From contig JAUZSE010000015.1 in the NCBI GenBank assembly GCA_030949725.1, positions 62,001 to 126,000 of the forward strand: 64,000 nt of DNA, in the 5' to 3' direction. The notes beneath the pieces are model-generated. The model was given only the letters and a program-made list of their open reading frames with translations. It made no database searches and had not been told where the DNA came from. A program made the translations under genes and the position numbers. Source of the DNA: Sulfurovum sp. GTDB lineage: Bacteria > Campylobacterota > Campylobacteria > Campylobacterales > Sulfurovaceae. Below, piece after piece: positions 7,636 through 54,309 of the stretch. Each line of letters opens with the position of its first letter. Position 1 is the first letter of the stretch.

Positions 7636-8861
7636 TATATTTTTGCCTCTTCAAGCTCTTTTAAGAACTTCTTTACGTTACGTGCTGCTTGTCTAATACG
7701 ATTTTCATTTTCAATCAATGCAATACGTACATACTCATCACCATATTTACCAAAACCAATACCAGGACTCACCGCTACGCCAGCTTTAAGTAAAAGTTGT
7801 TTTGCAAACTCTAGTGAACCTAAATGTCTAGCACATTCAGGAATCTTACCCCAAATAAACATAGAAGCATTGGGCTTACCCATCTTCCAACCTGCATTTG
7901 CAAAGGCTTCTAACATGACATCACGTCTTTTCTGATAGCGTGGGATTATCTCATCATCTGGAATATTATGATACTCATCTAGTGCCACAGTAGCAGCCAC
8001 TTGAATAGGTGTAAACATACCATAATCAAGCCAAGACTTAATGCTCTGTAACGCACCTATGAGCTTTTTATTACCTACGATAAACCCAACTCTCCAACCT
8101 GCCATATTGTAAGACTTAGAAAGTGTATAAGACTCTACTGCTACATCTTTAGCACCTTCAACTTCCATGATAGAAGGTGTTTTATAGCCATCAAACGTAA
8201 TATCTGCGTACGCAATGTCAGAGATAATATAAAAACGTTTCTCTCTTGCTAAGGCTACAAGTTTTTCATAAAACTGGGGTGTCACTGTAGCTGTAGTTGG
8301 ATTATGTGGGAAGTTTACTACTAAAAATTTTGCTTTAGGAATGGAGTTGTCTAAGTGATCTATTACATCTGCTAAAAATCTTTCTTCGTCTACTTCAAAA
8401 GTATCTTCATTAAAAATAAGTTGCATCTTCTCTACATTTGCCCCTGCTAAGATAAATGCCTGAGAATGTATAGGATAGGTGGGGTCTGGGACTATAGCCA
8501 CATCACCAGGGTTAGAAATGGCTTGCACTAAGTGGACATAGCCTTCTTTACTTCCCATCGTTGCTACTATCTCTGTGTCGGGATCTAACTCGGCATTGTA
8601 TTTACGTTTGTACCAATTAGCCATAGCAAGACGTAGTTTATATATACCTTTACTCGCACTATAGCCATGTGTTTTTGGCTTTTGTGCAGTCTCACAAAGT
8701 TTATCAATGATAGGCTGTGGCGTAGGAGCATCAGGGTTTCCCATAGAAAAATCTATGATATCTGCACCCTCACGTCTAAGTTGCATTTTTAGCTCATTGA
8801 TCTCTGCAAAAAGGTACTTTGGCAATCTATTTATTTTATCAAATTGTATCTCATCAAACAT
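7635..8861 (-). CDS. PLP-dependent class I/II aminotransferase (AlaC / LL-diaminopimelate aminotransferase-like)
   Basis: 408 residues of a fold-type I aminotransferase. The PLP-binding lysine sits in SLSKSYNMAGWRVGF, and the cofactor pocket motifs NFPHNPT and SDIAYADITFDG are intact. This group includes alanine and LL-diaminopimelate transaminases. The tight overlap with hom suggests a role in the aspartate amino-acid family, but the exact substrate is not settled by sequence. The ATG at 8859-8861 gives the normal N-terminus (FDEIQFDKINRLPKYLF). The frame is clean. Confidence 0.88.
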   Translation of the reverse strand: MFDEIQFDKINRLPKYLFAEINELKMQLRREGADIIDFSMGNPDAPTPQPIIDKLCETAQKPKTHGYSASKGIYKLRLAMANWYKRKYNAELDPDTEIVATMGSKEGYVHLVQAISNPGDVAIVPDPTYPIHSQAFILAGANVEKMQLIFNEDTFEVDEERFLADVIDHLDNSIPKAKFLVVNFPHNPTTATVTPQFYEKLVALAREKRFYIISDIAYADITFDGYKTPSIMEVEGAKDVAVESYTLSKSYNMAGWRVGFIVGNKKLIGALQSIKSWLDYGMFTPIQVAATVALDEYHNIPDDEIIPRYQKRRDVMLEAFANAGWKMGKPNASMFIWGKIPECARHLGSLEFAKQLLLKAGVAVSPGIGFGKYGDEYVRIALIENENRIRQAARNVKKFLKELEEAKI

Positions 8862-8873
8862 AATTTTCTCGCT

Positions 8874-9365
8874 TTAAACTTTCTTCATCTTATCGACGCT
8901 ATTCAATGGAAATAAAGAAACAGTTTCATCTTGTGTACTCGACTCTTCTTCATCATTTCCTATAAAATTCTCTATCGTCTGTTCATCCAAAAAATGGATA
9001 AGCTCATTCAAATTTTTTTTATCAAACTGAGTAACAAAATACCAAGAGATAACACCAATCAGTATAAAAATAAAAATAATCAACACTGTTGGTTTAGCTC
9101 TATGCTCATCTATCACAGGTTGACCTATAGGAAATAAATATTCTGATATTCTTTTATCCCCATAATATTCTTCTGCTTTCTCTTTTACTGTACTCAAGTC
9201 TGCTTCATACTCTCGTTCAATAATAGAGATAAATCCCAACATCTTAACCTTTGTTAAAGAAGCAAATTCTGAGGCGATAACATACTCAATATTCTCTTCT
9301 AAGATCTTAGTCTTATCACTGATTGCTTGTACACTGTTTTTTTCAAGAATATCACTTAATTGCAT
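8874..9365 (-). CDS. Single-span membrane protein of unknown function
   Basis: 163 residues that I do not recognise. Residues about 1-85 are charged and mostly helical (ILEENIEYVIASEFASL, IIEREYEADLSTVKEKAEEY). One hydrophobic segment (about 93-111, VLIIFIFILIGVISWYFV) should cross the inner membrane, followed by an acidic tail (ENFIGNDEEESSTQDE). The frame overlaps the rlmB stop by 14 bases and ends 13 bases before the aminotransferase start, so it sits inside the rsmI-rlmB-aminotransferase-hom transcript. A small helical cytoplasmic domain joined to a membrane anchor is all that can be supported. Confidence 0.7.
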   Translation of the reverse strand: MQLSDILEKNSVQAISDKTKILEENIEYVIASEFASLTKVKMLGFISIIEREYEADLSTVKEKAEEYYGDKRISEYLFPIGQPVIDEHRAKPTVLIIFIFILIGVISWYFVTQFDKKNLNELIHFLDEQTIENFIGNDEEESSTQDETVSLFPLNSVDKMKKV

Positions 9366-10054
9366 AACCCATCCTATGTATTAAAATCGCTGCGGCTGCA
9401 CTCACGTTGAGTGAATCAAAAGCATGTTGCATTTCTATGGAAATCATTTGGTCTATTTTTCTTGACACTTTGCCAGATAAACCTTTTCCTTCACTTCCTA
9501 GTACAAGTATACGTTTAGAAGCAAACGTTACATTTTGTACATTTTCACCTTCCATTGATGCACCATATACCCTAAAACCCAACTGCCCAAGCTCGTTAAA
9601 ATCATCTAAAATATTTGCTGTTATCATCAAAGGCATGTCAAGTAATGCCCCTGAACTACTTCTTATAATCCCTGCCATATTGAGCTGTCGTACACCAGAG
9701 ACGATGATAGCATCAGCACCCAAAGCATAAGCCGAACGTACCACTGCTCCGATGTTACCCACATCTGTGAGACCATCAAGTACAACGATAAAGTCACTTT
9801 GCTTGACCTTGGAAAAGATTGTCTCTTCAAACTCCTCCATCTCTACAAGTAAACCTTGGTGATTCCCACCTTTGGACATGGACTGAGCCCACTTCTCTTC
9901 GAGAAACTTTATCTTGTCATGGTACTTGTGAAAAAAGGTCTTTAGGTAAGGTACCTTTAGAGTTGGCACCTTTTTGTGCAACATAAACTGTCTTTATCTT
10001 CTTTTCGTGATGCACTAAGGCATGTAAACACACTTGTTTTCCATATATAATCAT
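9352..10054 (-). CDS. rlmB: TrmH/SpoU-family 23S rRNA 2'-O-methyltransferase (frameshifted)
   Basis: SPOUT methylase of the RlmB type, which modifies a guanosine ribose in 23S rRNA. Core motifs are GLTDVGNIGAVVRSAYALGA, VLGSEGKGL and DSLNVSAAAAILIHR, the knot that binds S-adenosylmethionine. A shorter frame from 9984 lacks the usual N-terminus. The proper start (ATG at 10052-10054, IIYGKQVCLHALVHHEKK) lies in another frame and joins if one T is removed from a coding-strand run of six (plus strand A run 9931-9936). The repaired protein is about 233 residues, normal for the family. I read the extra base as probable sequence error. Confidence 0.85.
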
Positions 10055-20449: not shown

Positions 20450-21761
20450 GGAATCTCCCAAAAATAATTCTACCCACCTAAAGGTTCAATAGTCACATCC
20501 CATTTGAGTAATAATTTAGAGCGAATAATTCTATCTTCATAAGGCTCCATCTCTTTGAGGGTAAGTTTAACTCCAATTTCATATATTTTTTCACAAAGAT
20601 GAACTATAGGATTTATACCTTTCCAAGTCATACTCTTAGCCCATTCTATTGCTTTAGTGATAGAGTCTAGCATCTCTCCATTCCAATGTTCTTCTAATCT
20701 TCCCCAACACCTTTCAATAGCATTGTATTTACTGTGGTATGGAGGATAATAGATGAGACGAACTTTGATATTGTATTTATCTGAGAACTCCGTCATTCTT
20801 TTTAAAAATTGAGTCCGTCTTCCCGAACTGTTTGGACTGTTATCCAAGTTGATAACAAGCTCTTCTATCCCCATATACGCACCAAGGTTTTCTCTCCACC
20901 AACTCTCTATGCAGTCAGCTATAAAGTCACTAGTCTCAAGTGAAGTTCCAAAAAAGTTAAAAATCCAGTTAAAACATTCAGAATACCGTAGGGAACAAGT
21001 TTTGCTGTAGGGTTCATATCGTGGTCTTCTGCTTTCTTTGGCTTCCATATCACGCGATTTACCACCTCTTGAGAAGTTACCAATATTTAATTTTGCTTTT
21101 GCATCAATAGAAATTCTCAATGAGTTTGGATTCTCATCAGATGCTTTATTCACTTTCCATACATTTTCAAATATCTCATCTACTTCTTTTATCTTTTTGG
21201 CTGGTTTTGCTTTCAATACTCGTTTTAGGTTATATCCTAAACGATTTAGAATATTCCCTATTGTATTTTCACAAGGAAGTTCTTTATCACTGTATCCTTT
21301 ATCTTTAATTAATGCCTCTCTCACTGCTTTTGCTGTTGCTCTAGTGTAGGTTAGTGTTCCACTTTTCATTGAGGGGTCTGCTTGTGTTTGAGGATCTACT
21401 ATCTGGCGTATATCTTCACTTAATGTCTCTATTTTATCTTCTGTTCGTTTTCTACCTGCATCTTTATATCTATGTATGCATCTAATACCTGTCTCTATCT
21501 CTTTCATTCCTAGTTTCAGTGCTTCTCTTCCCCATCCCATTACACTTTCTGTCTTTCTTGCATTTCCTTCAAAGTACTCTATTGCTATATATGCTTGATA
21601 CTCTCGTCGCTCATAACTTTTTAATCTTTTTACTGCTTCATCAATTAATTTTTTTGTTTCGCTATTCATCTTTTTATCTTTTACTATTTTTTGAATTCTC
21701 TTAAATCGTTATTCTATTACTATTATATCTGATTTTGGTATTATTAATCTTGTGGAGTTCC
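20450..21761 (-). mobile_element. ISAzo13-like insertion sequence B, nested in ISKra4
   Basis: 1312 bp. The ends read GGAATCTCCC and GGAACTCCAC inward, related but imperfect. TAA at 20447-20449 and 21762-21764 is a 3-bp target duplication, the same length as for element A. It landed in the ISKra4 transposase gene, so it arrived after that element. Its transposase is only distantly like that of element A. Confidence 0.82.
20470..21669 (-). CDS. ISAzo13-family transposase, single frame
   Basis: 399 residues in one uninterrupted frame. The N-terminal half is helical and basic, with an HTH-like region and the segment RATAKAVREALIKDKGYSD, as in ISAzo13/IS630-like transposases. The DDE core reads SIDAKAKLNIGNFSRGGKSR, VINLDNSPNSSGRRTQFLKR and YHSKYNAIERCWGRLE. 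Unlike the transposase of element A, it needs no frameshift. The element has both ends and a whole gene, so it may be active. Confidence 0.88.
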   Translation of the reverse strand: MNSETKKLIDEAVKRLKSYERREYQAYIAIEYFEGNARKTESVMGWGREALKLGMKEIETGIRCIHRYKDAGRKRTEDKIETLSEDIRQIVDPQTQADPSMKSGTLTYTRATAKAVREALIKDKGYSDKELPCENTIGNILNRLGYNLKRVLKAKPAKKIKEVDEIFENVWKVNKASDENPNSLRISIDAKAKLNIGNFSRGGKSRDMEAKESRRPRYEPYSKTCSLRYSECFNWIFNFFGTSLETSDFIADCIESWWRENLGAYMGIEELVINLDNSPNSSGRRTQFLKRMTEFSDKYNIKVRLIYYPPYHSKYNAIERCWGRLEEHWNGEMLDSITKAIEWAKSMTWKGINPIVHLCEKIYEIGVKLTLKEMEPYEDRIIRSKLLLKWDVTIEPLGG

Positions 21762-23725: not shown

Positions 23726-24998
23726 TAGGTCATTTTCATACAATATAAACCCAACTATGTAACTAATCTACCCAAAAAGTGAGGGTTATTCCCACAACTT
23801 TTAAAAATACCCGACATATTGAGGCTTTTATTGTCAGGTTTATGCTTGTTTAGGTGAAGTTGTATGCAATTAATGACAAAACTCCTAAGAATAGCTAATC
23901 CAAAAGGATTGACTGATATTTTACAATCGTCCTCTTTGGTTAATCTGTCTTTATAATAATGGTAAGTTTCACAACGCCAATGGTCTTTGATACCTTCTTT
24001 AAAGTAGGTCGCACTTTCTAAAAAGTTTGCAATTAAATATTGCTCTTTTACTTTTATTTTACCCTCATTGTCACTTATATATTTTACCTGTTTAATGATT
24101 GATTTTATATGACTAAAAGAGCTATTATTAATGAGTGATTCATCATTTTTTGAACTCAAAACGAAAGTCTCTCTTTTTACCCATTTATTCCCTTCAATAG
24201 ACTCTCTTTTATCTTTCTCTTCTAAGATAGTATTAGTCTCTTTTACAGATTCCTCTTCAAAGGCTTGACGCACCTGTTTAAGTAATGTTTTTTGGTTACC
24301 TTTGACTTTGGCTAAATACCTTTTTCCTTTAGCCTCAATCCCATTTAGGCTCTCTACTTGGGTATTTAGTGCATCAAAGGTATATAGAAATGGTTTATCT
24401 GAAAACTCCATCTCTAATACCTTTTGAAACTCGGGTATCTCGGACTTCTTAGCTCCTAACTCTCTATGGGCAATCACAATTTTAGATGCTGTTTCCACTA
24501 CATTTAGCATACCTACATTCCGTTTAACAGTATATTTCCCCTTACGTCCACTTCCATTCATTGTCTTTCCATCTACGGCTAATTGTGTCTTCTTATTAAA
24601 TTCAACTTTAGGTATAAAATACGCTCTAAACATCTCTTCTAAGATAGTAGAATCTATGTTTATTATCATTCTTCTTATTGTTGAATATGAAGGTATTTTA
24701 AGCTCTTCATTTTCTTTCCCTATCATCCTTTTAAAGTACTTCTCATTGAAGTTTATCTCTAGCCAATTATGTTTATCTTTTATTTCTATATTTCCTACAA
24801 ACATACTACATAAAACACCAAATAATACATCTCTTTGGTTATGTTCTATTTTCTCTTTTGTTACTCTATAATCTGGCAATTTTTCTAATATCTCTAGGGT
24901 CATTTCTATATTTATTAATTCTTTAATTTCTATTTTCATAGATTATTTTAAACATTTATTCGCTTTGTTCTTGCTTGGAATTGTATGAAAATGACCTA
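23726..24998 (-). mobile_element. ISAs1-family insertion sequence
   Basis: 1273 bp with perfect 19-bp terminal repeats, TAGGTCATTTTCATACAAT read inward from each end. The ten bases ATAGGTCAAA are repeated on both sides (23716-23725 and 24999-25008). A ten-base duplication fits the ISAs1 family. It interrupts the receiver domain of the response regulator; excision in silico gives GFDLYQSKKPD in frame. Confidence 0.95.
23755..24939 (-). CDS. ISAs1-family transposase (H-repeat-associated type)
   Basis: 394 residues, a normal length. The N-terminal domain has LEKLPDYRVTKEKIEHNQRD and the hydrophobic LFGVLCSMFVGN segment typical of this family. The DDE core includes LAVDGKTMNGSGRKG, FLYTFDALNTQ and AKVKGNQKTLLKQV, with DHWRCETYHYYKD carrying the final acidic residue. 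The frame is complete and the element has intact ends, so it may be functional. Confidence 0.93.
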   Translation of the reverse strand: MKIEIKELINIEMTLEILEKLPDYRVTKEKIEHNQRDVLFGVLCSMFVGNIEIKDKHNWLEINFNEKYFKRMIGKENEELKIPSYSTIRRMIINIDSTILEEMFRAYFIPKVEFNKKTQLAVDGKTMNGSGRKGKYTVKRNVGMLNVVETASKIVIAHRELGAKKSEIPEFQKVLEMEFSDKPFLYTFDALNTQVESLNGIEAKGKRYLAKVKGNQKTLLKQVRQAFEEESVKETNTILEEKDKRESIEGNKWVKRETFVLSSKNDESLINNSSFSHIKSIIKQVKYISDNEGKIKVKEQYLIANFLESATYFKEGIKDHWRCETYHYYKDRLTKEDDCKISVNPFGLAILRSFVINCIQLHLNKHKPDNKSLNMSGIFKSCGNNPHFLGRLVT

Positions 24999-43470: not shown

Positions 43471-44808
43471 TCATTTATTTTGCTTTTTTAATAGTTCATG
43501 TAAGTTTGCTGGTGAGATATATGCTATTGTCCTACCATCTTTGTAATTACCTAGTATTTTATAACTTACCAAATTTTTCAAATACGTTCTCGCCGTATTA
43601 GCAGAAACATCGTAATCTACAGATACTTCTAATGCTGTAAATATACGACCTGGACTTTTTATTGCCTTCTTGATAATATCTTTTTGTACAAAATTTAGTT
43701 TTATTGCTAATTCAGAGTTTTTTAATATCTCTGTTAGCTCTAGAAATTCTTCACTCTTCTTTTCTAAAAAACTTCGTAAATCATCTATGGCTCTTAAAAT
43801 AATATCGATTTGATAATAGATAAAATAATTTAAGTCATTGTCATCAATCTCTGTGTATAAATAGGCTTTGCTATATTTAACTGGTGCTGCCTTTAGTAGT
43901 TTACTAATTGAAATATATTCAAAATAATCATAACCATTTTTCATCATAAACCAATAAAACAATGCTCTTGCTGTCCTACCATTACCGTCTGAAAATGGGT
44001 GTATATAACCAATCATAAAATGTAAAATAATTGCTTTTATCACTGGATGTATAAAATCTACATCCTCATGATTTTCATTTGCAAATACACACAACATTTC
44101 CAATCTAGACAATACCTCATCATATTTTGGTGGTTGATAAATATTGTTTCCATCAATGTCACCTATAAAAATATCATCGTTTGTTCTAATTTGTCCAGGG
44201 ATAACTCCATTCTCAGTTAATCCTTGTGTAGCAATTTCATGAAATTGTAAAATCATATCAATACTTAAAAAATTTGCTTTGGCTCGTTTAACTTCTTTCA
44301 TTAAAAGATAATTATTTACAATCATACGCTCATCAGGACTTTTTGCTTCCCTTGCTGATGCAATCATTTCTTTTGCTACTCTTCTTGTTGTTGATGCCCC
44401 CTCAAGTTGAGAGCTATTAATAGCTTCTTCTATAACGAGAGAAGAAAAAAGATATTTATTTCCTATGGGATTTGTAGGCATAAGCCCATCTCGTGAAAAT
44501 TCTGAAATTTTATATAGTTTTGACTGTAAAGAGTCATATGCAGCATACTGAAAAAGTATATTATCTTTATTTTGCAACTTAACCCATTTTTTATTAGACG
44601 CACGGTGCAGTTTCACTGAATACCAAGCTATCAATGGATCATCTTTATTTAGTTTTGCATGATATTTAATTTTATCCCAATAAAGATATCTTCCTTTTTC
44701 ATCAACTTCTTTATACGTGTGATAATATTTCCCATCTTCAATTTTAAAAATATCATACAATCCAAATTTAAATTCAAAAGGTACTTTTTCAATTATATTC
44801 TTCGCCAT
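43471..44808 (-). CDS. Fic family protein with inhibitory helix (adenylyltransferase type)
   Basis: 445 residues. Fic enzymes attach AMP or another nucleotide group to a protein hydroxyl. The catalytic loop is HPFSDGNGR (270-278), complete. An inhibitory motif precedes it in the same chain (S132-x3-E136-G137, in SSQLEGAST), so it is a self-restrained class II Fic. The C-terminus (about 385-435, ALEVSVDYDVSANTARTYL) is a winged helix likely to bind DNA. It is monocistronic, with a palindrome between its -10 box and start. It lies just downstream of ligA; a second Fic gene lies in the cassette upstream of ligA. Confidence 0.9.
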   Translation of the reverse strand: MAKNIIEKVPFEFKFGLYDIFKIEDGKYYHTYKEVDEKGRYLYWDKIKYHAKLNKDDPLIAWYSVKLHRASNKKWVKLQNKDNILFQYAAYDSLQSKLYKISEFSRDGLMPTNPIGNKYLFSSLVIEEAINSSQLEGASTTRRVAKEMIASAREAKSPDERMIVNNYLLMKEVKRAKANFLSIDMILQFHEIATQGLTENGVIPGQIRTNDDIFIGDIDGNNIYQPPKYDEVLSRLEMLCVFANENHEDVDFIHPVIKAIILHFMIGYIHPFSDGNGRTARALFYWFMMKNGYDYFEYISISKLLKAAPVKYSKAYLYTEIDDNDLNYFIYYQIDIILRAIDDLRSFLEKKSEEFLELTEILKNSELAIKLNFVQKDIIKKAIKSPGRIFTALEVSVDYDVSANTARTYLKNLVSYKILGNYKDGRTIAYISPANLHELLKKQNK

Positions 44809-44943: not shown

Positions 44944-46893
<1,950 letters not shown>

Positions 46894-48048
46894 TTACCCT
46901 TTCTTCTCAATAATTACATCATTTATTTCATCATAACGATAATCAATAATCCTAGCACTAATAATAAGTTCAACAGCCTCTTCAATCACCGATAATGGAG
47001 CTATAAACCATTCTCTAGGCTTATGTACATTACCTTTTCCATCAAATATATCAATATTCAAACAACTACTACTAAAAAACTTATGTATCAACTGCTCTAA
47101 TTTATGTGGATTGACATTATAAACTTCATAGGCTGATACAGTCTGTACTTCTGCCATAAGATACGTTGGATCATTTACTGCATTTTTAATTCTTGTTTCT
47201 ACTCCTGTTGTTGAAAATCCTATTTTAAATAAGTTCTTTTTTGTTCTGATAACATCTTCATTGCTCAAAGATTTTAAAATATAGATATAACCATTTTGTG
47301 TATCATCGTCATCAACCTCATAAAGTCCTTCTATTTTACTCTCATCATATTCACTTACCCTTTGACCATTTTTATACAATTCAGCAGACAAAGAACGAAG
47401 TAACATATCTGACTCTGTAGCATTTTCAAAAATCAACTTCAACCTTGCATTTGTTTTTCCTTGTTTTTTGAAAGGTACACCTACATCAAGTACATAAAGA
47501 AGTATGCCATTTAACACAAAGTAATACCCTTTCTTAATCTGCTGTTCATTTTGGAACTTAATAAGTTCTCTTTTTCTATTTTTTAAATCATTTTGACATG
47601 CAACAAATAAATATTCATACTTTTCAAATTCTTTACAAGCTTTACGAGAAGATACATAGTCTGGCATTGTCGTTATCTTAGGAATATGTATTAAAGTAAA
47701 AATATCTTCTTCATTTTGACTCAACAAGCCCAAGGGGTCATTTTCAAAAATATCATCAAGAGAAATAATTTTATCACTCAGCAATAAATCAAACCTATCA
47801 TATTTTTTAAGTGCTTCTCTCTTTTGAGGATGTTCTCTTAGTCCTTTGAGCCGTGAATATAATCTTCTCTCGTTCATATCAGTAGTTTTTTGAGGTTCAC
47901 AGTTATGTTTTTCATAAAAATCATTAATCTCTTCAAAGGTAGCGATGAGTCTATCATCAGCGGTAATAACTGGATTTTTTACTTTTAAATCACTTAGAAG
48001 TTCTAAGGGGTCACTATTTAAAATATCATCAAGAGAGAACCTATCCAT
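46894..48048 (-). CDS. GIY-YIG-type nuclease of the T5orf172 kind
   Basis: 384 residues. The C-terminal third (about 250-365) reads NGYIYILKSLSNED, LFKIGFSTTGVETRI and later HKLEQLIHKFFSS, the Y-x-I, K-I-G and late E/H pattern of T5orf172/Mug113 GIY-YIG nucleases. The N-terminal part has helical repeats (RLYSRLKGLREHPQKREAL) of unknown role. It overlaps the helicase stop by 8 bases and is the last gene of the methylase-Fic-helicase-nuclease set. It is the best candidate for the cutting subunit, since the methylase lacks a clear nuclease domain. Function in defence is inferred. Confidence 0.78.
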   Translation of the reverse strand: MDRFSLDDILNSDPLELLSDLKVKNPVITADDRLIATFEEINDFYEKHNCEPQKTTDMNERRLYSRLKGLREHPQKREALKKYDRFDLLLSDKIISLDDIFENDPLGLLSQNEEDIFTLIHIPKITTMPDYVSSRKACKEFEKYEYLFVACQNDLKNRKRELIKFQNEQQIKKGYYFVLNGILLYVLDVGVPFKKQGKTNARLKLIFENATESDMLLRSLSAELYKNGQRVSEYDESKIEGLYEVDDDDTQNGYIYILKSLSNEDVIRTKKNLFKIGFSTTGVETRIKNAVNDPTYLMAEVQTVSAYEVYNVNPHKLEQLIHKFFSSSCLNIDIFDGKGNVHKPREWFIAPLSVIEEAVELIISARIIDYRYDEINDVIIEKKG

Positions 48049-49966
48049 TGGCTTTTCTTTCTCTTCTTAAATTACTTAAAAAAATAAGAGCTTCTGCCAT
48101 TCGTTTCTCTTTTATATCCACTGAATTTATATTTGGTAACCTACTATTTTCATCTCTAAATTTTGGAATTAAGCCATAAAGGACAATGGCTTCTTCTGTA
48201 CTCATAGTAATTCTAGTAGCTTCTATAGATTCTTGAATAAGCTTCAATACCCCCGTAGTCACCTGCTTAGACAATATCTCAAAAGCTTGTTGAAAGGGAT
48301 TGATACTATTGATTAGGTCAATATTTAAATCATCTAAATTGATAAATTTATCAGCCATGCGTATAAACTTCTTATCTCCATTGATTTCAATAGTTGCACC
48401 TCTTGTTACACTATCTATCACCACATACTGGCTTAACTCTTTCACTTCTCTTTCACTCAAATCAGGATATTTTATTTTAATAATTTTGGGTATTAAAACT
48501 TCATTAATCACTTCTGCTTCAATATTCCCTGGCATCGCTTTTAGCATCTGTGGGTCTTGAAGTATAGAAGCTTTTAAATCATTCAAATCACTTTCAATAA
48601 TATCATTTACTTTTTTACTCGTAGGCTTTTTGAAACCTCTGATTTTTAATTCACCTTTTTTAGGTGGCTCATTATCATTGTCAAACCGTGGTTTAAATTT
48701 AAAACTAGGTGCCAATACTTGCTCCATAAGTAGTGATGAGGTAATCGCTTTGAGCATATTGTTTACAGAGAGTTTCACTTCATCATTATGAGCATCGGGT
48801 TGGGCTATGAGATTTGTAAACTGTGCGGTTGTTTTATTTTCACTATCTCTAGTAGCTCGTCCAATAATCTGTATGATTTCAGTAAGTGAACTTCTATACC
48901 CTACCGTTAAAGCATGTTCACAATAGGGCCAATCAAACCCCTCTTTTGCCATACCAAGTGCGATGATTAAGTCCATATCATCAACACTATCCATCTTTCG
49001 CAGATAGCTAATGATTTTATCTCTTTCTTTTGGTTCATCATTTACTAAGTCAGCAACTTTAATAAGCTTTCCATCTGTATATCGCTGTAAGATTATAACC
49101 CCATCATCTCTAACCTCTTTAACTCTTCCTATAATATCTAAGATAGTCCCCACTTCTCTATGCTTATCTTTTGTAGATTCACCTGAGTTTACATTAGGTA
49201 TATGTAAAATGGTTTTTTTATCAGTATCTAGTATCTCATCTATGGCACTTGTGTATCTACCTTGATAAAAGTGATACCCAATACCTAGTGATTTTAGATA
49301 CTCATACCCATTCAACTGTGCATAGTAGTCGTATGTAACTGGTGTAAACTTAGCTTCATCCTCAGGCAACAGAACAGGCACAGAATCCCCTCTAAAGTAC
49401 GAACCAGTCATCGCTACAATATGTACAGATGATTTTTCAATCAAGCTTCTCAATACTTCACCCAGTCTATTATCTCCATCAGCAGAGACATGATGAAACT
49501 CATCTATAGCTAAAAGTGTGTGATTAAATTTCGACTCATCTAACTGCTCAAATGCAAACCTAAGTGTGGCATGTGTACAGATTAAAATCTGCTCATCACT
49601 TTCTAAAAATTCTTTAAATGCAGTCACTTTACTTTTACTCTCTACTGTTGTACAAAGGTTATTTTTTTCTTTTATATCCCAATCGGAATAAAACCCATAA
49701 GATGTTAAATCAGTACTAGCAAATGAACCACCAATAGACCGTTCAGGAACAGCCACTATCACTTTTTTAATCCCTTGATTAATAAGCTTATCAAGTGCTA
49801 TAAACATCAATGCACGAGACTTTCCAGAAGCAGGTGGTGCTTTCAAAAGTAAATATTGAGCATCTCTTTTCTCAAAAGCTTTCTCTTGCATCTCTCTCAT
49901 ACCTAACGCATTGGTAGATTTACTCTGTCCTGTTTGTTCGTAATTTACATTGACTAAATTTGGCAT
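48041..49966 (-). CDS. DEAD/DEAH-box (superfamily 2) helicase
   Basis: 641 residues. Motif I is APPASGKS (43-50), motif II DEFHH (155-159), motif III MTGS (186-189) and motif VI QIIGRATR (366-373). This is the type III restriction-helicase style of SF2 translocase. The C-terminal 250 residues (KPRFDNDNEPPKKGELKIRG onward) show no known domain. It lies one base after the Fic stop and overlaps the next gene by 8 bases. In a restriction-like system it would move along DNA to bring the nuclease to its target; that is inferred from context. Confidence 0.9.
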   Translation of the reverse strand: MPNLVNVNYEQTGQSKSTNALGMREMQEKAFEKRDAQYLLLKAPPASGKSRALMFIALDKLINQGIKKVIVAVPERSIGGSFASTDLTSYGFYSDWDIKEKNNLCTTVESKSKVTAFKEFLESDEQILICTHATLRFAFEQLDESKFNHTLLAIDEFHHVSADGDNRLGEVLRSLIEKSSVHIVAMTGSYFRGDSVPVLLPEDEAKFTPVTYDYYAQLNGYEYLKSLGIGYHFYQGRYTSAIDEILDTDKKTILHIPNVNSGESTKDKHREVGTILDIIGRVKEVRDDGVIILQRYTDGKLIKVADLVNDEPKERDKIISYLRKMDSVDDMDLIIALGMAKEGFDWPYCEHALTVGYRSSLTEIIQIIGRATRDSENKTTAQFTNLIAQPDAHNDEVKLSVNNMLKAITSSLLMEQVLAPSFKFKPRFDNDNEPPKKGELKIRGFKKPTSKKVNDIIESDLNDLKASILQDPQMLKAMPGNIEAEVINEVLIPKIIKIKYPDLSEREVKELSQYVVIDSVTRGATIEINGDKKFIRMADKFINLDDLNIDLINSINPFQQAFEILSKQVTTGVLKLIQESIEATRITMSTEEAIVLYGLIPKFRDENSRLPNINSVDIKEKRMAEALIFLSNLRRERKANG

Positions 49967-49967
49967 A

Positions 49968-50945
49968 TTATTCCTTTACTTCCCAGTGTCCTGATTTTAG
50001 ACTTCCTACTCTGATGAGTTTATCTGTATCTTTAAGTTTTTTAATATCTCTTTTGATTGTTTTATCTGTAACATTTAGGTTATTTGCTAGTTCTATAATA
50101 GTTATATCTTTATTTTTACCTATAAGAGAAAGTATTTTATCAAGTCGTTTTAAAGGGACACTTTTAGGGACATTTTTAGGGACATTTTCTTTTTTTGTAT
50201 TTTCTAATGTTTTTAGAATAATATCAAGCATAAATTCAATAAATGGTGTACTTTCTCCTACCGAGCCTGAATCTTCTAAAGCTTGATAATATGCTTCTTG
50301 ATTATCTCTTACAACACTTTCAATAGGTATAGCAGCAAATAAACTTTTATATTTATTTAAAATGACAGATTGCCAAAGTCTTCCAACCCTTCCATTCCCA
50401 TCATTAAAAGGATGAATAAATTCAAACTCATAATGAAATATGCAACTTACAATAAGAAGATGCAAATCTGTTTCCTCCAACCAAGAAAACAACTCCCCCA
50501 TAAGTTGAGGAAGCATATCAGGAGGTGGTGCTACATGTATCACTCCATCTGCACCACCAACACCGACATTGCTTTGTCTATATCTACCTGCATTATTTAG
50601 TAAATTATCCATCAAAAACTTATGAGATTTTAACAAATCATTTTCACTTTTATAATTATAATTTTCTAAATAATCATAAGCTTTGATAGCACCTTTCACT
50701 TCTTCAATCTCTCGCATAGTTCCCAATACAATTTGACCATTTATTACTTTTGTAATCTCTCCTTCATCAAGAGTATTCCCCTCTATTTGAAGTGTGCCTG
50801 TGATTGATTTAACTCTATTTTTTTTACGAAGTTTCGGAGTATTAAATTCTTTTTTTATATGATTGAGTTCACTAATCAATTCAACAATATCACTAACATT
50901 TGTTAATATCTTAGAGGTTATTGTATAGGGTGGAGTGTAACTCAC
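49968..50945 (-). CDS. Fic family protein with C-terminal HTH, inside the methylase cassette
   Basis: 325 residues. The catalytic loop is HPFNDGNGR (178-186) and the inhibitory motif is T51-x3-E55-G56 (TLQIEGN), both intact. After residue 245 comes a repeat linker (NVPKNVPKSVPL) and a winged HTH (LDKILSLIGKNKDITIIELA, then TDKTIKRDIKKL). It overlaps the methylase stop by 4 bases and is one base from the helicase start, so it belongs to the operon. Fic enzymes modify proteins, so it may regulate the system or act as its toxic effector. Both roles are inference. Confidence 0.9.
   Translation of the reverse strand: MSYTPPYTITSKILTNVSDIVELISELNHIKKEFNTPKLRKKNRVKSITGTLQIEGNTLDEGEITKVINGQIVLGTMREIEEVKGAIKAYDYLENYNYKSENDLLKSHKFLMDNLLNNAGRYRQSNVGVGGADGVIHVAPPPDMLPQLMGELFSWLEETDLHLLIVSCIFHYEFEFIHPFNDGNGRVGRLWQSVILNKYKSLFAAIPIESVVRDNQEAYYQALEDSGSVGESTPFIEFMLDIILKTLENTKKENVPKNVPKSVPLKRLDKILSLIGKNKDITIIELANNLNVTDKTIKRDIKKLKDTDKLIRVGSLKSGHWEVKE
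50154..50189 (-). repeat. 12-bp tandem repeat, three units, in the Fic linker
   Basis: Three units of AGGGACATTTTT (plus strand, with one or two changes) encode the NVPK-like repeat joining the Fic and DNA-binding domains. Because the unit is four codons, copy-number change would alter linker length without shifting the frame. Confidence 0.7.
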
Positions 50946-53644
50946 TTTTTACCCTCCGCTTCTATCATCTTCTCATAAAGCTCAAAAAGATATTCAAGTC
51001 TCTCTTCATCATTTACAAATGCTTTCTTTCTATAACACTTTTCTATGGCTAAATCTAAGAGATGATGGGCTTCTTTTAAATCTTGTGGCATTTTATTTGG
51101 GTCGTAAAGTTGAGCTAATGTTTTTTCTGAGTGTTGTTCTCTTTCATCTAGGACATTAAAAACCAAGTCAGTTATTTCTTCTTTTAGTTGATTAGAAATC
51201 TTTGGAAATGGAAAAGTGTTATAACAAAGAGTATTTGAATACTGCATATCCATTTTAAGTCTTCCTGCAACTGCTCGTACCCATAGAATATGTATTTTAG
51301 ATGATAATAATCCAAAAGTCCATGCTTCCGCATTATAAATTACTCTTGCTGCATTGGAAATTATAGTATCAGAGTTTACAAATCCTATAGGTAAGTAATT
51401 TCTTCTTTCTGAGCCAGTTTGGGGAATAATAATACTTGTTGTAGTTGTATAAAGATTATCACGAAATTGATGTGATTTCTCTGCTAATTTTTGAGCACCC
51501 TTATCTTTACTATTTAACCTAAAGCTCCTCGTGGCTTCTACTCGATTTTTAATTTCTTTATATTGTAATGCATCATTTTTTTCTTTGTCGGCTATCCATA
51601 AACAATATCTTGTAGTACTATTCATTAATTCACTAGCACCCATAAACTTCTTAATATACTTATCTGCTCCTGGGGACTCTTCAATCAGTTTGCTATACTC
51701 ATTATATGTTAAAATCAAATGACCACCATCAACTGGTTTATTTCCTGACATCATTTCCGGAAGTTCTGATAATGAATTTGTTTTTTTAATTATAATGGTA
51801 TTACTACTATCAATAAGATAAGCATTAATATTTTTGACTTCTTTCTGTATGTTTAATTTATATATAAATTTTTTATTATTAGAAATATTTCTTAACCCAA
51901 TTATTACAACTGAAACACCAGCATTATCTTTAGCATTATTTTTCCATTTAAAAGACTGATGTGCAAAATCTATTTCAATATTCATATCAAAGATTAAATG
52001 CCAAAGTAATCCAACTTGTTCTCCTTGTGTAATTGAATTTGTAGTTACAAATGCACTCTTAGTATTCATATGCTGAATATATTTTGAAGCTATATAAAAC
52101 CAACATGCTATAAAATCTAAACTTTTATAATTCTCAACTTCTTGAAATACATATTCCATATCATATTTTTGTTCTTTTGACTGTTTACTCTTCCCTTGGT
52201 ATGGTGGATTACCTAATATATAGATCTCATCATTATCACTTTTCGGACACACTTCTTCCCAATCCAATCTAGTAGCATTCCTATGAACTATATTGCCACC
52301 ATCTTTAAGTGGTAATGGTGGAGCTGTTTCACCAAATTCTTTAAAAAATTCTATATTCATTTGATGTTCTGTCAACCAAAGTGAAAGTATCGCGACTTCA
52401 TGAGCAAAGTCATCTAGCTCTATGCCATAAAACTGTGTGAGTTCAATACTAGATGATAGCGATAAAAAACTAAGTTGTCTTGTTGTTGTACCAAATAAAT
52501 CTCCTTGTTTCATGTCAGAAAGTTTATTGATTTGTTGCAATATTTGTATCTCTAGCCTTCTAAGCTCTTTATATGCAATGATCAAAAAATTACCAGACCC
52601 ACAAGCAGGATCAAATATTTTTAGATTTGCTATTCTTTTAATTAGTTCTTGTAGTTTCTTTTTACTTGTTTTAAAGTTCTCAAACGCTTCATGCAGTTCA
52701 TCCAAAAACAATGGTTGCATCACTTTCATGATGTTTGGAACTGAGGTATAGTGCATACCCATATCACCACGATGTTCAGGTGTGACCACGGCTTGTATCA
52801 TAGAGCCAAATATATCAGGGTTTATGGCTGACCAATCTAAAGTACCAATATCAATCATAATATTTCTTGATTTTGTCGTGAACTTTGGTAAGAGATGTTT
52901 ATCTCTAAAGAGTCCACCATTTACATAGGGAAACGCTTTGAGATACTCTGGGAGATGGGCTTCTCTCTCTTTATTATCTGTATCAAAAACTGCAAACAAT
53001 CGTGTAAGATAACTGTCCATATCACTACCATCTACTTGTGTATGTGAAGTGATAGAGTGCGTAAATAAATTATCTTCAAAAATATTGGAGTCTTCGGCAA
53101 AATAACAAAAGAGTAGCCTAGTCAAAAATACATTGAGAGCATGTACCTCTTCGTGTGTAGAGGTTGGATTGCTTTTGAGTATCTCATCATAGAGTTTTGC
53201 TAATTTATTGGAAGCTTTTACATCTGCTGGATTTTCATCTATATGCGTTGACTTTTCCATCCCTGCCAAGGGCAAAAAGAAATCATAATGCTTCACTAGA
53301 TCCATAAGCTTTATATCTAGGGTATCAGTCGTTTTTGTATCATAAGCAAGGAGTGTTTCATAATCAGTAACTATGATAAATCTAGGCTTTTGTTTTTGTG
53401 TAGTTGTATCATCTCTTAGCATATCAATAGTGCCATGTAATTGTGTACTAACTGCTTTAAACAATAGCTTTTTTCTATGTAGCAATTCACCTTTAGCTTC
53501 AATCTGATTAAGTTCACCTTTTTGAAGTCTTGTAATGGTCGCCTTTGGCTCGCCATAGGCAAGAAGGAAGTCAAATACAAAAGTATCTTGTGAAACGTTT
53601 TCTATGAGCTTGGTGATGTTTGTTTCTATTTGTGTTATCGTCAT
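50942..53644 (-). CDS. MmeI-like DNA adenine methyltransferase with target-recognition domain
   Basis: 900 residues. The methylase core has FDPACGSGNFLI (about 343-354, motif I) and NPPY (about 478, motif IV), the N6-adenine type. Then AFVTTNSITQGEQVGLLW and FAHQSFKWKNNAKDNAGVSV follow, close to MmeI (type IIL). The TRD-like part (VEATRSFRLNSKDKGAQKLA) and WVRAVAGRLKMDMQYSNT also fit MmeI. The N-terminal 150 residues differ from MmeI and show no convincing PD-(D/E)XK triad, so cutting may be done by partners. The start overlaps the sanA stop by four bases. First gene of the cassette. Confidence 0.88.
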   Translation of the reverse strand: MTITQIETNITKLIENVSQDTFVFDFLLAYGEPKATITRLQKGELNQIEAKGELLHRKKLLFKAVSTQLHGTIDMLRDDTTTQKQKPRFIIVTDYETLLAYDTKTTDTLDIKLMDLVKHYDFFLPLAGMEKSTHIDENPADVKASNKLAKLYDEILKSNPTSTHEEVHALNVFLTRLLFCYFAEDSNIFEDNLFTHSITSHTQVDGSDMDSYLTRLFAVFDTDNKEREAHLPEYLKAFPYVNGGLFRDKHLLPKFTTKSRNIMIDIGTLDWSAINPDIFGSMIQAVVTPEHRGDMGMHYTSVPNIMKVMQPLFLDELHEAFENFKTSKKKLQELIKRIANLKIFDPACGSGNFLIIAYKELRRLEIQILQQINKLSDMKQGDLFGTTTRQLSFLSLSSSIELTQFYGIELDDFAHEVAILSLWLTEHQMNIEFFKEFGETAPPLPLKDGGNIVHRNATRLDWEEVCPKSDNDEIYILGNPPYQGKSKQSKEQKYDMEYVFQEVENYKSLDFIACWFYIASKYIQHMNTKSAFVTTNSITQGEQVGLLWHLIFDMNIEIDFAHQSFKWKNNAKDNAGVSVVIIGLRNISNNKKFIYKLNIQKEVKNINAYLIDSSNTIIIKKTNSLSELPEMMSGNKPVDGGHLILTYNEYSKLIEESPGADKYIKKFMGASELMNSTTRYCLWIADKEKNDALQYKEIKNRVEATRSFRLNSKDKGAQKLAEKSHQFRDNLYTTTTSIIIPQTGSERRNYLPIGFVNSDTIISNAARVIYNAEAWTFGLLSSKIHILWVRAVAGRLKMDMQYSNTLCYNTFPFPKISNQLKEEITDLVFNVLDEREQHSEKTLAQLYDPNKMPQDLKEAHHLLDLAIEKCYRKKAFVNDEERLEYLFELYEKMIEAEGKK

Positions 53645-54309
53645 TTCCTATATTTCACTTTCACTTTATCATCCATAATGGTTGCTTTGGTATCTAATAT
53701 ATGCACATCAAGAAAGGCTTTGAGTCTTGTAAAGTACTCTCTTAGTGCCATCTTTCTTGCGGCTTTGGTTCCAGCTATGTCTTTGGCTGCAAAACCGATG
53801 ACATTTTGCCCCTTATTTTTTGCAAGATATAATGCCCTTTCAAGATGAAACCTTTGGGAGATCACGGTATATTCTTTCAAGTCAAAGATGCTTTCTGCTC
53901 TAAGTATGGAATCGAGTGTTCTAAATCCTGCATAGTCCAAAGCGATATACTTTTTAGGTACCCCTGCTTTTATCAAGTCCTTTTGCATACGAATCGTTTC
54001 ATTATAATACTTACTAGCATTGTCTCCTGAAACCACAATGGCATCTACCTTCCCTGCTTTCCAAAGTGCCACGGCTGCATTGATGCGGTAGACATAAAAA
54101 TAATTCTTTTTACCTTTGGCTACGTACTTTGCTGTACCCAAAAGTAAGGCTGCTCTTTTATGGGGTACGTTTTTTACTTCTGCGTAGATAGCAGATTGTG
54201 TCGAGTAACTGATATACCTGTCTAAAGCATAAATGCCCAATCCTACTACTAGCGTCACCGTCACAAAAGACTTTACAATGTGCCATAGTATTCTAAACAT
54301 AAAAGACAA
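53641..54309 (-). CDS. SanA/YdcF-like envelope protein (DUF218)
   Basis: 222 residues. One N-terminal membrane helix (VKSFVTVTLVVGLGIYALD) and a DUF218 domain outside the membrane: RAALLLGTAKYV, DAIVVSGDNASKYYNE, KKYIALDYAGFRTLDSI and VISQRFHLERALYLAKNKG. This is the pattern of SanA, linked to vancomycin exclusion and envelope integrity in E. coli. It follows folP by five bases. It is the last housekeeping gene before the methylase cassette. Confidence 0.88.
   Translation of the reverse strand: MSFMFRILWHIVKSFVTVTLVVGLGIYALDRYISYSTQSAIYAEVKNVPHKRAALLLGTAKYVAKGKKNYFYVYRINAAVALWKAGKVDAIVVSGDNASKYYNETIRMQKDLIKAGVPKKYIALDYAGFRTLDSILRAESIFDLKEYTVISQRFHLERALYLAKNKGQNVIGFAAKDIAGTKAARKMALREYFTRLKAFLDVHILDTKATIMDDKVKVKYRK

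Follow-up and report, generated by a model that had tools for sequence, protein, structure and literature searches.

In a 64,000-nucleotide stretch of a Sulfurovum sp. genome (assembly GCA_030949725.1, contig JAUZSE010000015.1, positions 62,001 to 126,000; referred to as the window), four genes on the minus strand form a compact cassette. The first encodes an MmeI-family methylase (50942..53644, 900 aa), a gamma-class N6-adenine DNA methylase of the DnmA/YeeA type with a fused target recognition domain (TRD). It is followed by a Fic-domain enzyme (49968..50945, 325 aa, GTG start), which occupies what we call the cargo slot, by a YeeB-type superfamily 2 (SF2) helicase as the core motor (48041..49966, 641 aa; PF00270/PF04851/PF00271), and by a YeeC-type GIY-YIG (T5orf172) nuclease, abbreviated GIY (46894..48048, 384 aa; PF10544, PF13455). 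Reading of the translations confirmed four intact open reading frames (ORFs). The methylase and Fic genes overlap by 4 bases, the Fic and helicase genes are separated by 1 base, and the helicase and GIY genes overlap by 8 bases. The near-zero gaps and overlaps and the intact catalytic motifs that an earlier note on this DNA had described were confirmed, as were the coordinates. The genome assembly comprises 25 contigs and is only 69.6% complete.

The earlier note had put the four genes forward as a candidate new system. The core of the set, however, is not new. Its MmeI-family methylase, SF2 helicase and GIY-YIG nuclease match the dnmA-yeeB-yeeC cluster of Bacillus subtilis, an assignment based on domain composition, gene order and published descriptions (B. 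subtilis was among the control genomes for PF20473). What appears to be new is a slot for defence cargo. In passages of PMC7261158 and PMC9973331, the cluster is described as an MmeI-homologous methylase without a nuclease motif, followed by a helicase and then a T5orf172/GIY-YIG gene. The same passages state that the order is conserved in other species, propose a possible type I-like system, cite earlier notices by Morgan 2009 and Makarova 2011, and give GACGAG as the target methylated by DnmA. The window has a nuclease-motif-less MmeI-family methylase, an SF2 helicase downstream on the same strand and a T5orf172/GIY-YIG gene directly after the helicase, and differs in the Fic gene between methylase and helicase. 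The published passages on the cluster give no cargo slot, and one of them names an 'Uncharacterized' family as a possible further member in some bacteria (PMC9973331). Our literature searches found no paper combining MmeI, Fic, helicase and GIY-YIG as a defence system, and no description of the cargo slot, which the embedded-defence preprint of Payne et al. (2024) may list. The claim of the earlier note that no named system has this set holds in so far as neither the helicase nor the GIY nuclease could be assigned firmly to a family of PADLOC-DB 2.0.0 or NCBIfam (best PADLOC scores, 46 bits for PbeA and 20 bits for PDC-S57, respectively), which makes the failure to name the system understandable; it does not hold for the core, which matches the published cluster.

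All five MmeI domains of the methylase (MmeI_N, MmeI_hel, MmeI_Mtase, MmeI_TRD and MmeI_C) exceeded their Pfam cut-offs, and the protein matched the MmeI crystal-structure sequence 5hr4 with an E value of 5.8e-186 in an alignment that begins at residue 82. The motifs FDPACGSGNF and NPPY are present in the translation. The domain set is identical to that of Type IIL MmeI, whose cutting residues are reported as D70, E80 and K82. MmeI cuts alone, whereas the cassette methylases are devoid of the triad and accompanied by a motor and a separate nuclease. In the window, direct reading of the translation showed no D..ExK triad in MmeI_N (residues 1-158, 53171..53644, minus strand; PF20464, 109 bits, profile positions 1-181). 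The absence of an N-terminal nuclease triad and the allotment of motor and nuclease to separate chains, both noticed earlier, were thereby confirmed. A hidden nuclease in the methylase was ruled out, the N-terminus being an MmeI_N domain from which the triad is gone.

The loss of the cutting centre accompanies the presence of the helicase gene. Of 143 non-redundant methylases with a length of 700 aa or more, 0 of the 100 from cassettes and 23 of the 28 standalone ones have the aligned triad (Fisher p = 7e-21), as do 7 of 15 that were set aside as unclear. The comparison excluded loci L001-L020 and L152-L166 as well as shorter methylase ORFs, and the window is not among the 100. A stricter sequence pattern gave 5 of 100 cassette rows and 23 of 28 standalone rows; a loose motif search, positive in 27 of the 100 rows, was discarded as chance-prone in favour of the aligned columns and the stricter pattern. 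Five standalone rows are triad-less. One of these (L174) is a cassette-type methylase on a contig that stops short of any helicase, and in the other four (L230, L192, L206 and L193) the columns are gapped or shifted or the triad is absent. Since the MmeI_N domain was retained even though the triad was lost, a structural role of the domain is suggested. Standalone relatives in viral contigs were not found with a single-sequence query and were found with an alignment query. The TRD (residues 613-816, 51197..51808, minus strand; PF20466) is the fastest-changing part of the protein: when 363 pairs of related methylases from cassettes were compared, it had the lowest identity of the five domains in 352. 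Choosing the pairs on the identity of the N, C and spacer domains tends to lower the TRD value; the methylase domain, unused in that choice, averaged 64% against 45% for the TRD. Such low conservation is expected where specificity is being changed.

The helicase matched the Pfam families DEAD, ResIII and Helicase_C and is 67-76% identical to its relatives in other families of the order, and its predicted model (mean pLDDT 79) matched many SF2 helicases. Walker A, DEFHH and QIIGR.TRD are invariant or nearly so in an alignment of 127 rows. For the GIY protein, which matched T5orf172 and MUG113, the same is true of G253, Y256, K275, G277, R286, E318 and H322 over 124 rows. A sequence search of the PDB gave no match for either protein, and the GIY model (mean pLDDT 87, pTM 0.48) gave no structural match below E 0.001; one local match, to EF-P domain I (54 columns, rmsd 1.9), was left uninterpreted. 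A short 'GRxP' module recurs in the helicase C-terminus and the GIY N-terminus (hhalign probability 96%, E 2e-9 over 39 columns), while four other GIY stretches used as a control scored below 1%. The N-terminal part of GIY is a separate ORF in Acinetobacter, Proteus and a congener (G309), and at a guess the module may be a common docking part. Helicase-family fragments were also seen in Acinetobacter contigs labelled phage (records H41 and H42). Passages of PMC9258068 report the gene names yeeB and yeeC or yeeA within the OXA-23 transposons Tn2009 and Tn2006, a link by name only.

Other defence systems share parts of this design. As in type I restriction-modification, the modification and specificity functions come first and the motor later, with a cargo position between them. 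In contrast to type I, methylase and specificity form one MmeI-type chain, the motor is separate and the GIY-YIG nuclease is in a third gene. Type I has a separate HsdS and an HsdR combining motor and PD-ExK nuclease, and no HSDR_N match was found in the four genes. The methylase resembles the DrmMI and PglX models of class 1 DISARM and BREX, with NCBIfam PglX scores of 13.8-33.7 bits, far under the cut-offs of 400-900. PglZ and BrxC are absent among the four genes, and the helicase and GIY match no Drm model in PADLOC, where DISARM would have DrmA, DrmB and DrmC beside its methylase; for neither BREX nor DISARM was the rest of the genome searched.

The core recurs widely. In a phylum sample of 298 genomes, searched at E <= 1e-20 for the helicase, E <= 1e-10 for GIY and E <= 1e-30 for the window-type Fic, the helicase was present in 8 genomes and a GIY match in 9; in the ninth, the match is a fragment of 47 residues next to a Fic gene. 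The helicase was also found in 263 of 72,556 plasmid records, and in 153 of these the match covered at least 80% of the protein. Gene order was read at 131 loci, comprising the best 80 of 559 genome relatives, 43 viral loci and 8 plasmid loci. A methylase lies upstream of the helicase in all 99 loci with at least 3.5 kb of upstream DNA, and a GIY gene lies downstream in 122 of the 124 with at least 1.3 kb of downstream DNA. The two loci without GIY are L109, where the helicase match extends only to residue 538, and L151, which is partial. An exception in order is G289 (L008 and L013), which has helicase-GIY-methylase. Methylase-helicase cassettes occurred in 14 named phyla (66 of 116 tree rows have a named phylum), and this spread with a conserved gene order shows that the order is more than chance. 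The earlier note had suggested a search for the recurring four-gene order; the methylase-helicase-GIY part of it does recur, while Fic is not a fixed fourth member. The closest viral-contig helicase relative (L109, from IMG/VR; 86% identity) lies directly after a methylase without a slot and has no GIY in the next 8 kb.

Extra DNA was found at one junction of the core and not at the other. The methylase-helicase junction exceeded 250 bp in 39 of 107 loci in which both junctions were readable, compared with 0 of 107 for the helicase-GIY junction. When all readable methylase-helicase junctions were counted, 41 of 111 exceeded 250 bp and 70 of 111 did not, and thus hold no Fic. On a helicase tree of 116 rows (44 with a slot, 72 without), slot state changed 28 times, 17 of the changes being forced by starred branches. 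Compared with a mean of 35 changes after shuffling, this indicates that the slot state was gained and lost often yet is partly inherited.

The slot holds diverse cargo. We scanned 53 ORFs, made up of 52 of the 53 slot ORFs (L146, with coordinates identical to L136, was omitted) and the Fic of L060; ORFs shorter than 110 aa and those on the opposite strand were excluded. Ten matched HATPase_c_4, nine RhuM, eight AlbA_2 and five Fic/Doc, and single ORFs matched YhcG/DUF1016, AAA_15, AAA_13, KAP, FRG, PIN, Abi_C and others. The slot ORF set matched 173 PADLOC models at E <= 1e-10, with two candidate families, PDC-S23 (12 members) and PDC-S05 (9), at the top, and one slot ORF of L057 scored 224 bits for Old. 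Within Campylobacterota, the slot of G061 holds SIR2, HerA and Fic, with an identical ORF order in G206, and that of G056 holds an AAA_13 ATPase, an Mrr-nSTAND3 protein and Fic. Avs4 is probably a slot gene in G195, where the contig ends before the helicase and its place is inferred. There (L174, 990-8230), the Avs4 protein (1528 aa, 1712 bits) starts at the end of a dnmA-type methylase gene. Four further slot ORFs (L102:6428-7297, L114:7177-7998, L129:394-1287 and L150:718-1809) are possible defence candidates, of which L102 is perhaps not a real gene.

Some slot genes resemble toxin-antitoxin genes (PIN, DUF5615 and IrrE-type), as would be expected if the slot were no more than a place where selfish addiction or toxin genes are tolerated and share a promoter, with cargo that has no defence role. 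We consider this fairly unlikely, because the cargo includes the antiphage systems Shedu, SIR2-HerA and probably Avs4, and because similar cargo is found at the corresponding position of type I systems. In Escherichia coli, DarTG2 lies between hsdS and hsdR, a position named a potential hotspot in the passages of PMC12255303.

The Fic enzyme of the window combines a Fic domain (PF02661) with a C-terminal DeoR-type helix-turn-helix (HTH; PF08220), and matched 4rgl with an E value of 1.8e-76. The Fic motif is HxFx(D/E)GNGRxxR and the inhibitory-helix motif is [S/T]xxxE[G/N]. The enzyme has both, with an intact FIC motif HPFNDGNGRVGR and an intact inhibitory-helix-like TLQIEG at the N-terminus, so that the earlier description of a Fic enzyme with inhibitory helix and HTH in mid-operon was borne out. 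Window-type Fic was present in 22 of the 298 genomes. Among the 8 genomes with the helicase, it occurs only in the genome of the window, and the 21 other genomes carry it without the helicase. A fixed partnership of Fic with the cassette is ruled out by this distribution. The 44 ORFs flanking 22 other Fic places included 5 of the SWI2/SNF2 ATPase family and 4 with HSDR_N. Window-type Fic was also carried by 26 plasmid records, and in the three that were examined, from V. cholerae, Shewanella and Azotobacter, it occupies the position between hsdS and hsdR and is 41-48% identical to the window Fic. Fic/Doc genes recur in the cassette slot, in the window and in L031, L046, L056, L076, L167, L168 and L169 among 44 slot-bearing loci. 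These slot Fics are distant, with about 27-33% identity to that of the window and less for the Doc types. The Fic of L060, a close relative by profile score (474 bits), was rejected as an artefact of a drifted profile, its pairwise identity being 27.5%. At L173 (G125, 8450-9599), about 30 bp separate a window-type Fic from a downstream C-terminal GIY fragment (residues ~318-364); there is no helicase, and the locus looks like a decayed cassette.

The chromosomal site of the cassette gave the strongest evidence that Fic is cargo. The cassette is embedded in a folP-DUF218-ligA gene string, bordered on the left by a DUF218 gene (53641..54309, minus strand; PF02698) and on the right by ligA (44944..46890, minus strand). 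The gene run continues past the cassette on both sides, the DUF218 and methylase genes overlapping by 4 bases and ligA being separated from the GIY gene by 3 bases. At 30.0-34.3% GC, the cassette genes are richer in AT than ligA (40.2%) and folP-DUF218 (37.6%). The DUF218 protein is present in 15 of 31 genomes of the genus. At the 14 loci other than that of the window, DUF218 is followed by ligA within about 75 bp and no cassette in 10, by a cassette in one (G309), and by no ligA in the available stretch in the remaining three. The core of G309 is related to that of the window, with 85% identity in the helicase and 74-84% in the methylase domains, against 45% in the TRD. At this same DUF218-ligA site, the slot of G309 contains Shedu and a YhcG-type nuclease in the position where the window has Fic; a YafQ-type toxin gene lies upstream in G309.

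Fic is probably cargo and not a core subunit, and seems to belong to a large set of defence genes that can replace one another at the same position. The earlier note had left open whether it is a controller or a toxic second line. As a controller or subunit of the restriction machine, Fic might AMPylate the helicase or the nuclease, or its HTH might repress the operon. The overlap with the methylase gene, the single base before the helicase gene, the presence of an HTH and the recurrence of Fic/Doc in the slot are consistent with such a role. We nevertheless regard it as improbable, because 70 of 111 junctions have no room for Fic, G309 has other genes in its position, the window-type Fic is also found in type I operons and in helicase-less genomes, and the Fics of the slots come from distant subfamilies. 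Since, within the 298 genomes, window-type Fic and helicase occur together only in the genome of the window and the congener has other defence genes, a controller is less likely than an exchangeable second line, the part of the earlier proposal that we prefer.

A second Fic gene, of another subfamily, lies downstream of ligA and outside the cassette (window 43471-44808, minus strand). Its product has 27% identity over part of its length, a weak Fic_N match, and the sequences HPFSDGNGRTAR and SSQLEG. Two transposase genes (20470-21669 and 23755-24939, minus strand; ISAzo13-type DDE and DDE_Tnp_1) lie far from the cassette.

On the basis of these sequence comparisons, we propose that the window carries a dnmA-yeeB-yeeC type restriction-modification operon with Fic in its cargo slot, which would work as a methylase-guided motor and nuclease plus a second-line Fic; we put the probability of this reading at roughly two in three. 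By analogy with DnmA and MmeI, the methylase with its TRD would read a short asymmetric site and mark one adenine of host DNA. On unmarked DNA, it would recruit the YeeB-type SF2 motor through its dead nuclease domain or its C-terminal part, and the motor would travel along the DNA and deliver the YeeC-type GIY-YIG nuclease for cleavage. Cutting by type III and ISP enzymes requires two facing unmodified sites, and the same may apply here. The complement of a site such as GACGAG contains no adenine, so that marking is confined to one strand and replication leaves one daughter duplex unmarked; if cutting required facing sites, that duplex would be spared, as with type III enzymes. Fic would stand outside the machine as an autoinhibited AMP-transferring enzyme, co-expressed from the slot between the modification and motor genes, and would halt growth as a second line once the first has failed.

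The intact genes, the conserved core, the loss of the triad, the diversifying TRD, the position-specific slot and the different cargo at one site in two congeners are the observations on which this proposal builds. Several points weigh against it. The restriction, methylation and Fic activities of the window cassette are predicted, and the two-site rule is a proposal by analogy. The loci examined were biased to close relatives of the helicase, slot state was clustered on the tree (2 of 500 shuffles gave as few as 28 changes), the genes that flank window-type Fic elsewhere are mostly unrelated to restriction, and the 'GRxP' module rests on its 39 columns. Phenotypes of relatives are mixed. According to passages of PMC9973331, which cite the work, deletions in a relative in Vibrio crassostreae raised sensitivity to some phages and were without effect on others, and in passages of PMC7261158 and PMC9973331 the B. 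subtilis cluster gave no restriction of transformation or of any of the three phages tested. This last result agrees with the cassette being the relic of an orphan methylase, in which the methylase serves for epigenetic regulation and the other three genes (helicase, GIY and Fic) have fallen out of use, the conclusion reached for B. subtilis. We find a relic in the window quite unlikely, because all four of its genes are intact, the catalytic residues of helicase and GIY are near-invariant over 127 and 124 rows, and the TRD diversifies while the remainder of the methylase is held. In addition, B. subtilis YeeB and YeeC are described in a passage of PMC9973331 as without stretches found in the V. 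crassostreae proteins.

Beyond the window, we suggest tentatively, and at less than even odds, that the methylase-helicase junction of dnmA-yeeBC operons serves generally as a cargo bay and is the counterpart of the hsdS-hsdR position of type I systems. Complete second-line systems (Shedu, SIR2-HerA, Avs4, OLD-like, Fic, RhuM and others) would be kept, exchanged and co-expressed there, the cargo would be activated when restriction stalls or fails, and the degenerate MmeI nuclease domain would be the docking platform for the motor-nuclease pair.

The core represents a restriction-type system of very wide distribution, with a helicase and a nuclease that are poorly matched in PADLOC-DB 2.0.0 and NCBIfam. 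Its methylase illustrates how a self-sufficient cutting enzyme can become part of a split machine, with the nuclease centre lost and the domain kept. The slot offers a hunting ground for new defence genes, in that any gene separating an MmeI-type methylase from a YeeB-type helicase is a candidate for a role in immunity, and the functional coupling of first-line restriction with embedded second-line systems becomes a testable question.

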